Assembly (NCBI GenBank): GCA_903789635.1
Contig: CAIFEY010000013.1
Span: 1-62,288, forward strand
Source: an uncultured Eubacteriaceae bacterium
GTDB lineage: Bacteria; Bacillota; Clostridia; Peptostreptococcales; Anaerovoracaceae
Direction of reading: 5' to 3'
DNA: 62,288 bases
Shown here: positions 1 to 60,601 of the stretch, in pieces
Position numbering within the stretch: position 1 is the stretch's first letter
Layout of the letters: the number at the start of each line of letters is the position of its first letter
Notes under the pieces: model-generated
Databases searched by the model: none
The model's input: only the letters and a program-made list of their open reading frames with translations
What the model was told of the DNA's origin: nothing
Position numbers and translations under genes: made by a program

Positions 1-454
1 TCTAAAAAAACCGTTACACTTTTCCCGTGTCTACTTGACAGGGACCTGATCAGCGGCGCCTGGGAAAATGGCGAACTATCATGGAAATTCCCAAATTCCG
101 GGCCGCCGTGCCGTCGCCTATCCGCGCGATCACCTCGAACTCGGCGGCGCGGCGCGACATCCCCCGTTGATCCAGGCGCGGGAATTGCATTCGTGCTATC
201 GTTACGTCAAAACATGTGGATACTGTATGCATTCGTCTTCCTTCGCTAAGGATCCGCAGCAGCGTTGTCAATACGCCGCTACGCAGCGCGGCGGCGTATG
301 GCTCAAAGTAAAAAAGGACCGCGAAGAAATCTGCAGCGATTTCTTCGCGGTTCTGCATTATTGTGTGTATTCACCTGCCGCCGCAAGCCGCGCCGCCATC
401 AGGTCGGGCGGGTTGGGTTGTCGGCTGCGGCTTTTGTCGCACGAAACGCTCGGG
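1..454. other. Non-coding stretch at window start with partial R1-like sequence
   Basis: No convincing gene is seen here. Bases about 68-113 (GGGAAAATGGCG, then TTCCCAAATTCCGGGCCGCC) match the 3' part of the R1 repeat copies at 13.06-13.70 and 55.77-56.48 kb, so a degraded or truncated R1 copy is likely. An ATACTGTATGC motif near 220-231 resembles the GTATAC-type ends of those copies. A terminator for the first gene lies at 318-351. The long plus-strand frame over this region and the first gene is antisense to that gene and was not accepted. Confidence 0.5.
318..351 (-). terminator. Intrinsic terminator after the Ig-like protein gene
   Basis: A perfect 14-bp stem (318-331 with 338-351, six-base loop) is followed on the minus strand by a run of six T. 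It lies about 100 bases past the stop codon at 455. Confidence 0.85.
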
Positions 455-4011: not shown

Positions 4012-5046
4012 TTAGTCGGCGTCGTTGACGACTCTTCTCGCTGCACGCGGTGTCTTGGTGAAGTACATCGACGTGACGCGGATGCCGTACTGATAGTTGA
4101 TCGCGTGAACGACCTGGCCGTTGCCGGCGTACAGGGCGAAGTGGCCGCTGTAGATGATGATGTCTCCCGGGTGCAGATTGCTCAGGGAAACGGCCTTGCC
4201 CGCGGTGTACGGGATTCTCGGGACGTTCAGACCGAAGTGCCTGTATACGGAATAGATGAAGCCGGAGCAGTCGCATCCGTTGGTCAGGCTGATGCCGCCG
4301 TAAACGTACGGGTTGCCGACGAACTTCTTCGCGTAGTTGACGATCTGTGTGCCGGTTGTGCCGTCGAATGTGCGTCCGACAGCGTTGACGGAAGCGGTTC
4401 CTCTGGTGACGACCTTATCGACCGGATCCTTGGTGATCGTGTCGACGTAAGTCTTATCGGTAACCGTGCTGTTTTCTTTAGTAACCTTGTAGCTCTTATA
4501 GACCTTGCCCTTGACTCCGCCGGTGACCTTCTTGGTGGTCTTTCTCATCTCGGAGGAAGTGGTGCGTACGGTGTCGTAAAGAATGGTGGAAACGAGTTCC
4601 TTGACGGTGGAAACCGTCTTGATGTCCAGAGCCTCGTCCTTGACGACCTTCTTGCAGAAGGAGTCGACGCTCAGTGTCTTCTCGCTCTCTGTGTCTGCAT
4701 CGGCAGAAGCATTTCTGACGGAAGAAGTGACCGGAGTAACCGTGATCTCGTCGTTCGAATCGATCGAAACGGTATCGATGTCCTCGTCGGAAGCCTTCAG
4801 GTAGTCGATGATTTCTTCCTTGATTTCCGAAGGACTCAGGTCAGCCTTGACGTAGTAAGTGAATGTCTTGTCTCCGTTCTTAGTCACGACCTTGCTGACC
4901 GTGCTGGAATCGGATGCCGCGAATGCGTTGGCAGATGCGAACCCAAACACCATAACCATGGCCAAAACTGTAAGCACGACAGCCAGAAGCACGTGATGGT
5001 TCCTGACCCCCTTGTTCGCCGTCTCGATGTCATTAAAATGATGCAT
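4012..5046 (-). CDS. Secreted NlpC/P60 peptidoglycan endopeptidase
   Basis: A 344-residue exported cell wall hydrolase. Residues about 18-44 are the signal peptide (LLAVVLTVLAMVMVFGFASA). The middle (about 45-220) is acidic and beta-rich without a domain I recognise. The C-terminal NlpC/P60 domain (about 230-335) has GNPYVYGG, GCDCSGF with catalytic Cys260, HFALYAG with His302 and a third polar residue at His314 (VVHAIN). This is the triad of gamma-D-glutamyl-diamino acid endopeptidases that cut stem peptides. No SH3 or LysM wall-binding module is visible, so the acidic middle may serve for targeting. The ribosome site (AGCAGGG) is poor. The gene is single, with a good promoter at 5135-5163 and a terminator. 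Confidence 0.9.
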   Translation of the reverse strand: MHHFNDIETANKGVRNHHVLLAVVLTVLAMVMVFGFASANAFAASDSSTVSKVVTKNGDKTFTYYVKADLSPSEIKEEIIDYLKASDEDIDTVSIDSNDEITVTPVTSSVRNASADADTESEKTLSVDSFCKKVVKDEALDIKTVSTVKELVSTILYDTVRTTSSEMRKTTKKVTGGVKGKVYKSYKVTKENSTVTDKTYVDTITKDPVDKVVTRGTASVNAVGRTFDGTTGTQIVNYAKKFVGNPYVYGGISLTNGCDCSGFIYSVYRHFGLNVPRIPYTAGKAVSLSNLHPGDIIIYSGHFALYAGNGQVVHAINYQYGIRVTSMYFTKTPRAARRVVNDAD

Positions 5047-12879: not shown

Positions 12880-13055
12880 GCCGGGCGAGGCCGGGAGGCA
12901 CATATCACCTGTGCTGTCAATCCCGCCAGTGCTGCTTCCCCGGCGGCGCGTATACTGTATATCTGCGCTCCCCGCCGCACGCTTTCATATTAAATGGTAC
13001 GTGAATTGTGCGGCGCACCCGCACGACGGAACACCGGGGCGCGCGGGTGACGCGA
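12880..13055. other. Gap between repeat R3 copy 1 and repeat R1 copy A
   Basis: No gene was seen. A GTATACTGTATA motif at about 12949-12960, followed by ATTAAATGGTA near 12988, resembles the motif pair at 61783-61808 in the terminal hairpin region, which suggests a shared repeat end. Confidence 0.4.
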
Positions 13056-13703
13056 GTATACTGCATATTTCTGCAAAAGCGTTGAAAGCAACGCCTTTAC
13101 GAACATTTGCCGCGGCTGGGGCGCTTCGAAGAGCGACGATCGGGATGCAGGGCGGCGCGGCGGCCTGAAAGTTGGGAAAATCCGTCGATAAATCGCCATT
13201 TTCCCACCCCGCCCCCGGAATGTTGGAAAACGGCCTCAAAATTCTGGAATTCCCAACTCGACTGCGATGGAAGCCTTAAACAATATACCCTATAGGGGTA
13301 TATACAGGGCGATGATTATCGTCATATGGTCAGTGTACCGCCGCCGCCGCTGAAATACACATGACGATATGACTATGTTGCGCGGCGAATTACGCAGTTC
13401 GTCCAGAATAATAGCGGCGGTGCAGTCGACTGCGGCGGACGCACTGATCAAATTGATGATTGTGATCTTCCCGCACCGCCGCAGGCTCCTACGGGACTTT
13501 GGAATTATGAATTTTTGTCGCCGTTTTCCCTAACTTTTTTTGAGGTCTTTGGAAAACGGCCCCCTAGCAGGCAAAATTCCCAACGGCAGCCGCGCCATAC
13601 CCCACTGATCCGGACCGCGGGACCGCATTCGCGGCGCCGTCCATATCATTCGCCCCATCAATCCTGTCCACGCAGCGCCCCAACGCCGCGTATATTGTAT
13701 ACC
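13056..13703 (-). repeat. R1 structured repeat, copy A (reverse orientation)
   Basis: The reverse complement of this stretch aligns over most of its length with copies at 26633-27268 and 55765-56480. Shared landmarks in order: GTATACAAyATAC start, GGCGCGGCTGCCGTTGGGAA, AAAAAAAGTTAGGGAAAACG, AATTCCAAAGTCCCG, a CATCAATTTGATC hairpin, a CGACTGCACCGCCGC stem arm pairing with a later GCGGCGG arm, the palindrome TATACCCCTATAGGGTATA (13284-13302), GTTGGGAATT, TTCCAACATTCC, and a TATGCAGTATAC end. In this copy one arm reads GTACCGCCGC (13335-13344) against GCGGCGGTGC (13414-13423), a U-G pair that keeps the stem. No intact ORF runs through it. Confidence 0.85.
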
Positions 13704-13910
13704 GGCGACCCCCTCCGGCCGCCGCTCGTTAGCTCCGCAGTCCAAGTCGCTACCCGTAGCCGCGTTGCCGCACGCAGAAGAGGCCGGCGAGAAATCCTTC
13801 GACTCCTCCCCGGCCTCTTCCTATGAAATCAAGTATCTATTTCAGTAGCGATCATCGGTGCCTGCATACTGCATCCAGGCGCGCCCGTCTGCTTGTCTTC
13901 TGTCAGTCTT
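13704..13910. other. Gap between R1 copy A and the BusR-like gene
   Basis: No gene was seen. AGAGGCCGG (13780-13788) and CCGGCCTCT (13811-13819) form a 9-bp hairpin followed on the plus strand by TCC only; on the minus strand it lies past the regulator stop and may weakly terminate it. Confidence 0.4.
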
Positions 13911-22610: not shown

Positions 22611-23596
22611 TAACTCCGAATCTATATTATCAGTCTTTGCGCACTCACCGGCAGAGTGTATTCTATATACATCGATTTTTCTGCGCTTTTTCCCTCGTCA
22701 GCGGAGCGCGGAACCCCCGCTCGCCGCGAATCGACGATCGCCGATTCGGTTCACGATCAAAATTTCGATGCAGCTGGACTTGTGTACTGCATACTCCTGA
22801 TACGCGAAAATTTATCATATAGCCGAACGCCCGCTCCGGCGGCACCCCAACTTACCCGGCCGCCCGCCGGGCGCGACATCCCCGGCACTGCTCGCTGCGC
22901 AAAAAAATAGGACTGTAAAACGCAGACCCTTTTTATGTGCTGGAATTATGACGGCGTATTCGCTATCGCTCCGCATCCATCTCGAGGGAAGTTCATACCT
23001 GGGTAATTAATCGGCTGCTTATATTGTATTCTTTTCTGTAGAGTCGCAAATTATTCATTTTGGTGGAACGCGATTTGCGAGATTCCATAATAGCGAAAAA
23101 TCGATGCACTTACATAACGGATTCCCAGAGCTGTTCGATCTTATAGGTTTACCATTACTGGAATTTGTTATGCTCTTAGAAATCAATCTGATTTTCGCGG
23201 TCTTTTCAGGCAAAACATTGTCCGCAGCGACCCAACAGAGACTTGATTCCCGACGTTTTATATAAATATACATTCAACTTGAACACATATTCGCCGTCGC
23301 GGACACTTACCGGGGACATCACTACTACATCAGGACCGCTCGCGGACCATTTTCATGTATCATCTGCTCAGTCTCAAATTGTCAGACTACTTCACTCGTT
23401 TTCCGGCAGTGAAAAAGTTCCACCAAGGTGCTGAAAAATACGCATTGCTGAAATTCGGAAAAGCCGTTCCACCGAACTTCATGATTTGATCTCCTACTGA
23501 AAATCGATAGTCAATTATGTCCTTCCGAGGGTTTTTCGATAGATTTCATCTATGTGTACTGTATACCGGGACCCGCCGTCGATAGATTATTTTGTC
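22611..23596. other. Long gap with no assigned gene
   Basis: About 1 kb, AT rich from 22920 to 23560. I see no protein gene. A 31-codon minus-strand ORF (23387-23482, MKFGGTAFPNFSNAYFSAPW...) has AGGAG eight bases upstream but nothing else to support it. The GGTGGAAC motif occurs three times (23059 plus; minus strand near 23411 and 23475). GTACTGCATAC at about 22786 and GTGTACTGTATACC at about 23553 resemble the R1-type ends. GCCCGCTCCGGCGGCACCCC occurs at about 22829 and again at 23729, so another short repeat family is present. Confidence 0.4.
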
Positions 23597-26632: not shown

Positions 26633-27268
26633 GTATACAACATACACCATTTCCTGACAGCCTCAATAGCAAAACTGCGCTTCCCGCACCCGGCCAGGCG
26701 GGGTATGGGCGCGCCGCCGTTTGGAATTCAGTCCGTTCAGTGGCCATTTTCCCAACAGTCCAAAAAAAGTTAGGGAAAACGGCGCAAAAAATCCTTAATT
26801 CCAAAGTCCCGCGAAGGCCGGCGGGCGCCTCCGTCGCTGCAGGCAGACCAAGATCATCAATTTGATCATGGCGCCCGCCGTCACTGACTGCACCGCCGCC
26901 ATCAAAATAGACAGAACACACAATTCGCCGCACAACACGGTCACGCCGTCTTCCATTTTCCAGCGGCGACGGCGGTGCTTCCATCTCCCGCAGGCAGTCA
27001 TCGCGATCTATATACCCCTATAGGGTATATAGATTTCCAGTATCCGCCTGCGGCCAGTTGGGAATTTCGAGATTTTAGGCGCCATTTCCAACATTTCCGG
27101 CGGCGGTTTGGAAATCAGCGCATTTTCATCGAAATTCCCACATTTTAGACTAGATCTGATCAGTTCCCGCGGCGCGCCCAGGTCTACTGCCTCGCCGCCC
27201 GCCGCCGCCCACTCCGGATATTCGTAAAGCCGCTGATTTCCAACGTTTTACTGAATTATGCAGTATAC
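26633..27268 (+). repeat. R1 structured repeat, copy B
   Basis: Starts GTATACAACATACACC and ends TATGCAGTATAC. Conserved stems: GGCGGGCGC (26820-26828) with GCGCCCGCC (26871-26879), enclosing GATCA/TGATC; then GCACCGCC (26890-26897) with GGCGGTGC (26971-26978). The palindrome TATACCCCTATAGGGTATA is at 27011-27029. The frame around the second stem could be read as a short peptide in all three copies, but stops interrupt any longer frame in this one, so a structured DNA or RNA element is more likely than a gene. Confidence 0.87.
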
Positions 27269-27372
27269 AGCCATCACCTCCAGTGTCCCAGTGCCCCATC
27301 GACCGCCGCCGCCCACGCCGGATATTCGTAAAGCCGCCGAATCCCATCGTTTTACTGAATTATGCAGTATAC
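27216..27372 (+). repeat. Tandem duplication of the R1 3' end
   Basis: GGATATTCGTAAAGCCGC ... GTTTTACTGAATTATGCAGTATAC occurs twice, at 27216 and 27320 (period 104), so copy B carries two 3' ends. A duplicated end suggests insertion next to an older end, or slippage. Confidence 0.85.
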
Positions 27373-27519: not shown

Positions 27520-27559
27520 ACGGGCTGCGAAAAACGTTCCGGCATTTTTCGCAGCCCGT
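27520..27559 (-). terminator. Terminator after the TPR protein gene
   Basis: ACGGGCTGCGAAAAA (27520-27534) pairs perfectly over 15 bases with 27545-27559; minus-strand T after the stem. Confidence 0.85.
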
Positions 27560-55764: not shown

Positions 55765-56480
55765 GTATGCAACATACACCACTTTCTGACAGAGCAGATA
55801 GCGAAATTGTGCTCTCGCCGTTCCACCATCTCCATGATCATTCTTCGCTCAATTGGGAGCGGCGGGAACGGGACACATGTATACACCATGCACCATTTTC
55901 TTACAGATTCGATAGCTCATTTGCATTCTCAGCGCCTGGATCACCTGGATCGACGGGGGTTATGACGCGCCGTCGTTGGGAAATATGCCCGTTCGTCGGC
56001 CACTTCCCAAACGGTTCAAAAAAGTTGGGAAGGACGGCGCCGAAAGTCCATTTTTCCAAAATCCCGGAGAAGACGGCGGGCGCATTAGCCGCTGCGGGCA
56101 GAGCGCGATCACCGATTTGACCATTGCGCCCGCAGACATCGACTGCACCGCCGCCATCTTTCTGGACAAACTGCACAATTCGCCAAACAACGTGGTCGTG
56201 CTGTTGTCCGTTTCCAAGCGACGGCGGCGGTGCTCCCCTCGCCTGCCGGTAATCACTGCCTCGCATATACCCCTATAGGGTATATCGATTCCAGATTCCC
56301 TCGCAGGCGATTTGGGAATTTCGCAGATAGACCCTTATATTCCCAGTTAATTTTTTAACATTTGGAAATGCGTGCTTTTTCACCTCTTTTCCCAAATTCC
56401 AGGCCGCCGTGTCAGCTTTCCCGGCGCGGCGACAGCACACTCGCCCTCACTATTACCAGTAAATGGTACATGGAGTATAC
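55765..56480 (+). repeat. R1 structured repeat, copy C
   Basis: Two start-like motifs, GTATGCAACATACACC (55765) and GTATACACCATGCACC (55879), are each followed by a TTTCT-ACAG-GATAGC tract, so the 5' end is duplicated. Conserved stems: GGCGGGCGC (56075-56083) with GCGCCCGC (56126-56133), and GCACCGCCGCC (56145-56155) with GGCGGCGGTGC (56223-56233), perfect over 11 bp. The palindrome TATACCCCTATAGGGTATA is at 56266-56284. The 3' end is degraded (GTATAC at 56475-56480). Confidence 0.87.
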
Positions 56481-60076: not shown

Positions 60077-60601
60077 TAGATTATCAAATATAATCAAAGA
60101 GGCAACGAAAATCCGCCGTATTTTTGGGTTCGTAACACAATTATACGTGTATTTATTTATATACAAAAACATACCGCAATTTATCCCTTTTCTAGCATTT
60201 CCAACGATTACAGCGCGCGCAATTAAATCGTTTTCTCTACCACCCTCATGGTTTGGTGCGTTTGTAAGCACTCCGAACGGGGTTTGGCTAAGTTATGATA
60301 TTTTTTAACTAGATTTTACCATATCTTTTTTGTATCGTTCCCCAATTTCCGCCCGATCCAGCGCTGTGAAATCCGTCCCCTTCAACCAAATTTTCCCTCG
60401 GGAAACGAAATCCCCACTCGATATTTCTGTGGGAGGGACAAAATTTACGCGCCAGGCACAAAACTGGTTTGCTGCGTTTGCTTATCGGGGGGAAAGCGCG
60501 CGGGGGAACTTGAGGTATACTGTATCCCGTATAATAATCACATTCAAGGTGAAAAATTACCCGTCTCAGGTGCACTCAAAATCCCTGTCAATCAGGGGAA
60601 T
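60077..60601. other. AT-rich gap with short hairpins
   Basis: No gene was seen. Small stem-loops: TTTCC/GGAAA around 60393-60405, CCAG/CTGG near 60452-60467, CCCTG/CAGGG (60583-60597). CGGGGGAACTT followed by AGG-ATACTGTAT at about 60502-60525 recurs at 61769-61792. Confidence 0.5.

Follow-up and report, generated by a model that had tools for sequence, protein, structure and literature searches.

A repeated composite palindromic element

The window analyzed here, 62,288 nucleotides of contig 13 in the 77-contig draft genome (2,635,323 bases, 2.64 Mb) of an uncultured Eubacteriaceae bacterium, contains three related stretches, copies A, B, and C of a repeat that we denote R1, together with the left part of a fourth copy (Table 1). 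Pairwise comparison within the window gave 71.7% identity for B and C (E 2.7e-60), 72.0% for A and B (E 1.3e-51), and 70.9% for A and C (E 1.2e-45), far above chance and in agreement with a preceding sequence-only reading, which had taken the three as relatives along their length. The boundaries of 640-720 bp given in that reading stand in part: the three copies do align, but the part common to an alignment of 40 oriented copies is narrower, approximately columns 57-590 of a 704-column consensus, and the 3' tail is separate.

Table 1. R1 copies, the parts of copy B, and the insertion sequence end in the window.
Feature	Position	Strand	Remarks
Insertion sequence end (IRR) targeting R1	1..52	-	
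Fourth R1 copy, left part only	53..276	-	cut by the insertion sequence at the contig end
Copy A	13056..13703	-	from sequence comparison and the center model
Copy B	26633..27268	+	from sequence comparison
Copy B, left end	26633..26716	+	GTATAC-type terminal unit and variable left arm
Copy B, left module	26719..26808	+	columns ~153-241; nested TTGGGAA/TTCCCAA inverted repeats, A7 tract mid-module
Copy B, first GC-rich hairpin	26819..26879	+	CGGCGGGCGCC...GGCGCCCGCC
Copy B, second GC-rich hairpin	26890..26978	+	GCACCGCCGCC...GGCGGTGC
Copy B, 19-bp operator-like palindrome	27011..27029	no strand	TATACCCCTATAGGGTATA
Copy B, right module	27057..27143	+	columns ~487-573; inverted repeat of the left module
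Copy B, 3' tail module	27188..27268	+	ends in ATGCAGTATAC
Second, tandem 3' tail module	27292..27372	+	88.9% identical
Copy C	55765..56480	+	left end in tandem duplicate (55765 and 55879)

R1 is a non-coding composite palindromic element of about 530 bp, with the TTGGGAA...TTCCCAA hairpin as its unit. Two modules of such hairpins, each of about 88 bp, bracket a center of about 240 bp that holds two GC-rich hairpins and the 19-bp palindrome; the right module is an inverted repeat of the left one, with consensus columns 487-573 matching columns 241-153 at 71%. The 3' tail is a module of its own, present in some copies only and repeated in tandem beside several. A GTATAC-like unit occurs at the left end in 19 of the 40 testable copies, in the tail in 21 of 39, and at both ends in 9 of the 32 copies testable at both. 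The hairpin modules are combined with this unit and with the tail differently from copy to copy. The strict TTGGGAA...TTCCCAA pattern marks a single site in the window.

Short units resembling GTATACTGCATA are found 13 times in the window compared to 1.46 expected (none of 100 shuffles reached 13), and seven of the 13 lie at the ends or in the tails of R1 copies. Near-palindromic units of this kind that lie outside R1, at 12950-12961, 13864-13875, 22782-22793, 23554-23565, and 60515-60526, possibly represent a separate short REP-like family. By eye, a shared intergenic module with a hairpin of roughly the form TTCGATAGATTTcATCTATGTGTACTGCATAC was also noticed near several R1 copies, upstream of R1 at loci L083 and L104 and downstream at L105, and in one copy (L126, ~4050-4190) the central palindrome is lengthened by 14 paired bases.

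Copy number and coding capacity

The expectation of dozens of copies per genome was borne out. A blastn search of the host genome with copy B, in which 40 of the 81 first-look candidates were scored, returned at least 50 matches, of which 40 are copies of the core and 10 are short pieces of the tail. A covariance model of the R1 center (171 positions), with 150 of its 1320 candidates scored, recovered at least 47 copies, all spanning positions 1-171 and scoring 141-195 bits; beyond these, the scored candidates contained nothing down to an E-value of 0.01. A model of the left half, R2, gave 64 matches in the host genome with no clean score gap, which is blurred because the right modules weakly match the left-half model.

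The observation that the copies hold no intact gene extends to the whole family. In the 40 copies, the frames of the core are open in 2, 0, 6, 5, 0, and 1 copies, respectively, six being the maximum, and the 40-copy alignment lacks a clear three-base period in column variability. A longer copy encoding a transposase would turn R1 into an ordinary decayed transposon; none of the R1 copies found in the draft genome contains a transposase gene. Parts of the center do look, by eye, like plausible codons in one frame, as would be expected if R1 were a relic of a protein gene, or of a mobile element that formerly contained such a gene. However, with no frame open in more than six copies, no clear three-base period, core length changes that are not multiples of three, and the absence of a long open version from all the genome, congener, order-wide, and pattern searches made, a coding remnant was rejected as highly improbable.

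Divergence and constraint

The cores of the 40 copies differ from the consensus by 11.5-24.2% substitutions with few indels, and core length is 314-318 nt in 37 of the 40. Against this divergence, 37 of the 316 core columns are invariant in 40 copies, compared to an expectation of 0.19 under an equal rate of change in all columns, and 26 of 311 are invariant in 47 copies; six columns of the 19-bp palindrome, plus four more, never vary in the 40 copies. No recent spread is visible, given that terminal branches account for 83% of the length of the R1 tree and that the highest identity of any pair is at most 87%.

The copies are probably held by constraint at the level of sequence, most likely as double-stranded sites for a putative DNA-binding protein. 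A singleton test for constraint at the tips found 158 columns without a singleton compared to 169 expected, which is near chance and so does not prove that constraint acts on each copy rather than on spreading lineages; selection on such lineages could account for the pattern.

Stems: RNA or DNA

Given the strong folds predicted on both strands, R1 might be a structured RNA, either a small RNA or a 3'-UTR element that acts post-transcriptionally, and the sequence-only reading had regarded the two GC-rich stems as conserved in this sense. The details fared unequally. The second stem of copy C is indeed perfect over 11 bp when read from the sequence; the changed base in copy A that had been taken to preserve a U-G pair does so on the minus-strand reading, but on the plus strand of the element is a C-A mismatch. 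Across the family, the notion of central stems conserved as RNA was not supported. For the 40 central pairs, 90.3% of the cells are paired compared to 90.0% after shuffling, and the covariation score was reached by 56 of 500 shuffles. Single changes in Watson-Crick consensus pairs yield G-U and A-C equally often (plus strand, 238 and 235, respectively; minus strand, 269 and 247), so that neither strand is favored. In the light of this parity and of the lack of covariation, the central stems appear to be kept as sequence, rather than as a strand-specific RNA.

Some covariation is detectable in the left module, where 23 cells carry two-sided changes compared to 9.1 after shuffling and neither this count nor the covariation score was reached in 500 shuffles; the pairs with a two-sided change are not in excess (53 of 500 shuffles), and the changes may be explicable by the relatedness of subfamilies. 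The structure used for this module included a spurious two-pair helix at columns 99-112, with 6.6% of its cells paired, that lowered the pairing percentage. A longer covarying stem around the 19-bp palindrome was considered and rejected: the mean extension was 1.87 compared to 1.45, with the largest shuffle at 1.79, and the excess was carried by four copies. Rfam returned no family at the gathering cut-off, the best permissive E-value being 0.78.

Thus, the two-sided changes in the left module, the predicted folds, and the location of R1 at gene 3' ends speak for an RNA, whereas the central pairs, the parity of G-U and A-C changes, and the negative Rfam result speak against it, as do the occurrence of R1 in either orientation relative to transcription and the fact that genes beside R1 can own a terminator, as next to copy B, where the terminator hairpin at 27520-27559 belongs to the neighboring gene. 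We consider the RNA interpretation quite unlikely.

Genomic position

Genomic context was assessed with a home-made codon-based gene caller, the comparison set being the 130 gaps without R1, each 60 bp or longer, in the same stretches. Twenty-eight copies have a gene on both sides, and the other 19 abut a contig end on one side. Small overlaps aside, 27 of the 28 two-sided copies lie between called genes. Among the 28 gaps with R1, convergent ones are strongly over-represented (15 of 28 compared to 13 of 130; P 1e-8) and divergent ones under-represented (1 of 28 compared to 24 of 130; P 0.024), the co-directional gaps numbering 12 and 93, respectively. Within the co-directional gaps, R1 shows no preferred orientation (7 to 5).

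An insertion sequence that lands on R1

Two recurrent sequences, found in 23 and 24 places (47 altogether), lie without exception at contig ends. They are the two termini of an insertion sequence whose body the draft lacks, and in appearance they resemble the ends of the IS3 family. The only gene with an rve domain found in the host genome is on contig C19, which carries neither of these contig-end sequences; it is the OrfB of a different, complete insertion sequence, with OrfA (HTH_Tnp_1) and OrfB (rve), at L274:1291-2459 on the minus strand.

R1 is a preferred landing site of the insertion sequence with the missing body. Of the 47 ends, 30 have an R1 profile match in the flank, and for 29 such a match lies no more than 40 nt from the junction (28 by best match only). 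In 25 of the 47, the junction follows a TTCC[CAT][AG]N foot, at a distance of 7 nt in 18 cases, 10 nt in six, and 11 nt in one; a foot 6-11 nt upstream is found for 1.6% of 20,000 random positions in the window. Five of the 25 foot-adjacent ends lack any R1 profile match, so that the hairpin itself may be the target, and lone hairpins of about 40 bp are, by eye, apparently present beside some of the insertion sequence ends. Thirteen of the 47 ends have neither a profile match near the junction nor a foot. The insertions recur at both edges and in the middle of each module (columns ~144, 195, 243, 480-487, 530, and 577), and the 7/10 spacing fits a 3-bp target duplication. The fragmentation of the draft genome is largely explained by the copies of this insertion sequence in R1, which sit at contig ends.

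Distribution, empty sites, and the origin of the copies

Searches of the full host genome and of relatives found many copies in the host only. A blastn search of 40 relatives, including 16 congeners, recovered no R1 (at most 14 candidates scored per genome). The center model likewise failed to find R1 in the 16 congeners, giving a single 25-bit match, in genome G012, inside a 141-aa protein frame that we take to be PyrI. With stricter filters and 11 candidates scored in each genome, the model was run on 246 further genomes from the order, a set that includes some of these congeners; its one match there, at 30 bits in genome G148, lies inside a thiolase gene. The plasmids and phages searched yielded no R1. 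An exact pattern that matches 31 of the 47 host copies had three unrelated chance matches across 84,980 species genomes, whereas viral contigs gave no match; both collections may exclude the host genome itself. In 649 kb sampled from four congener genomes, there was no comparable repeat family. R1 is lineage-specific in that, across these searches, it was found in a single species.

Two aimed searches identified empty sites: a convergent gene pair separated by 941 bp with R1 in the host lies 136 bp apart in congener G003, and another, 888 bp with R1, lies 153 bp apart in congener G004. Synteny of the sampled stretches gave one loose pair. With two congener sites empty, R1 was either gained here or lost in the congener.

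The empty sites, together with the many copies dispersed in one species, are what would be expected of a MITE, a non-autonomous DNA transposon mobilized in trans by a transposase and now decaying; R1 is also short and non-coding, and some copies (9 of the 32 testable at both ends) have GTATAC-like units on both sides. However, constant terminal inverted repeats are not a feature of the family: most copies lack a common pair of ends, and the copies do not share common edges. There are no near-identical copy pairs and, among the scored candidates, no truncated centers; the rates of change differ strongly between columns, with the constraint in the middle, not at the ends; and no autonomous relative was seen among the copies found in a draft that lacks at least one insertion sequence body. 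Hence a MITE seems to us a rather unlikely explanation.

We consider it fairly probable that R1 is a lineage-specific, non-coding, BIME-like element that no longer visibly moves, is constrained in sequence, and serves as a landing pad for an insertion sequence. Under this BIME-like interpretation, R1 would at an earlier time have spread with no self-encoded enzyme, entering DNA where insertions are tolerated, at the 3' ends of genes and chiefly between convergent ones. The copies would no longer visibly move and would be held by sequence constraint, most likely as double-stranded binding sites for a protein. The insertion sequence, in turn, would target the foot of the hairpin, entering at a distance of 7 nt beyond TTCCCAA and, judging from the spacing, duplicating 3 bp.

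A bolder possibility, which we put forward tentatively as less than probable, is that the R1 copies are working chromosomal landmarks, large and double-stranded, between convergent genes, where a putative dedicated protein would bind the 19-bp palindrome and the hairpin feet, managing supercoils or insulating transcription; each copy would then be kept by selection in its own right and would offer the insertion sequence a safe harbor that spares genes.

Comparison with known repeat systems

The claim that R1 is not recognizable as any known element holds at the level of sequence, but not with regard to its way of life, which resembles that of REP/BIME. Listings of open papers on repeats of Clostridia and on similar bacterial families show no repeat that matches R1. 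Tobes and Pareja (2006, PMC1525189) describe REP repeats as often located between convergent genes, and members of the IS3, IS110, IS4, IS256, and IS5 families as targeting REP elements. Set against REP/BIME and REP-targeting insertion sequences such as IS1397, ISPsy8, ISPpu9, and others, R1 shares with REP/BIME the extragenic palindromic units in many copies, the mosaic structure, the preference for convergent gene ends, and the specific targeting by an insertion sequence. The differences are that R1 is repeated as a whole composite of about 530 bp, in contrast to REP units of 20-40 bp; that its core is nearly constant in length; and that a single species yielded it in the searches described above. 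Of the REP tags, GTAG/CTAC is absent from the 704-column consensus, and CGTC occurs six times without being tied to the foot of a hairpin. Given this difference in the size of the repeated unit, we maintain that it works like a BIME but do not claim membership.

The pneumococcal BOX, RUP, and SPRITE repeats are described (PMC3049150) as modular intergenic repeats that are nearly restricted to one species and that spread in the past but are slow now. R1 is also modular and intergenic, was found in one species, and would likewise be the product of past spread; it differs in being longer, in lying mainly at convergent gene ends, and in serving as the target of an insertion sequence.

R1 is best read as a new, oversized REP/BIME-like composite element. 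The biology of REP/BIME is known mostly from short units in Proteobacteria, and R1 would add an example with a unit ten times as long, in an apparent Firmicute, together with an insertion sequence partner of its own that keeps a fixed spacing. The diverged copies, dozens of them within a single genome, amount to a natural mutagenesis set, in which the columns that never vary would name the contacts of the putative binder.
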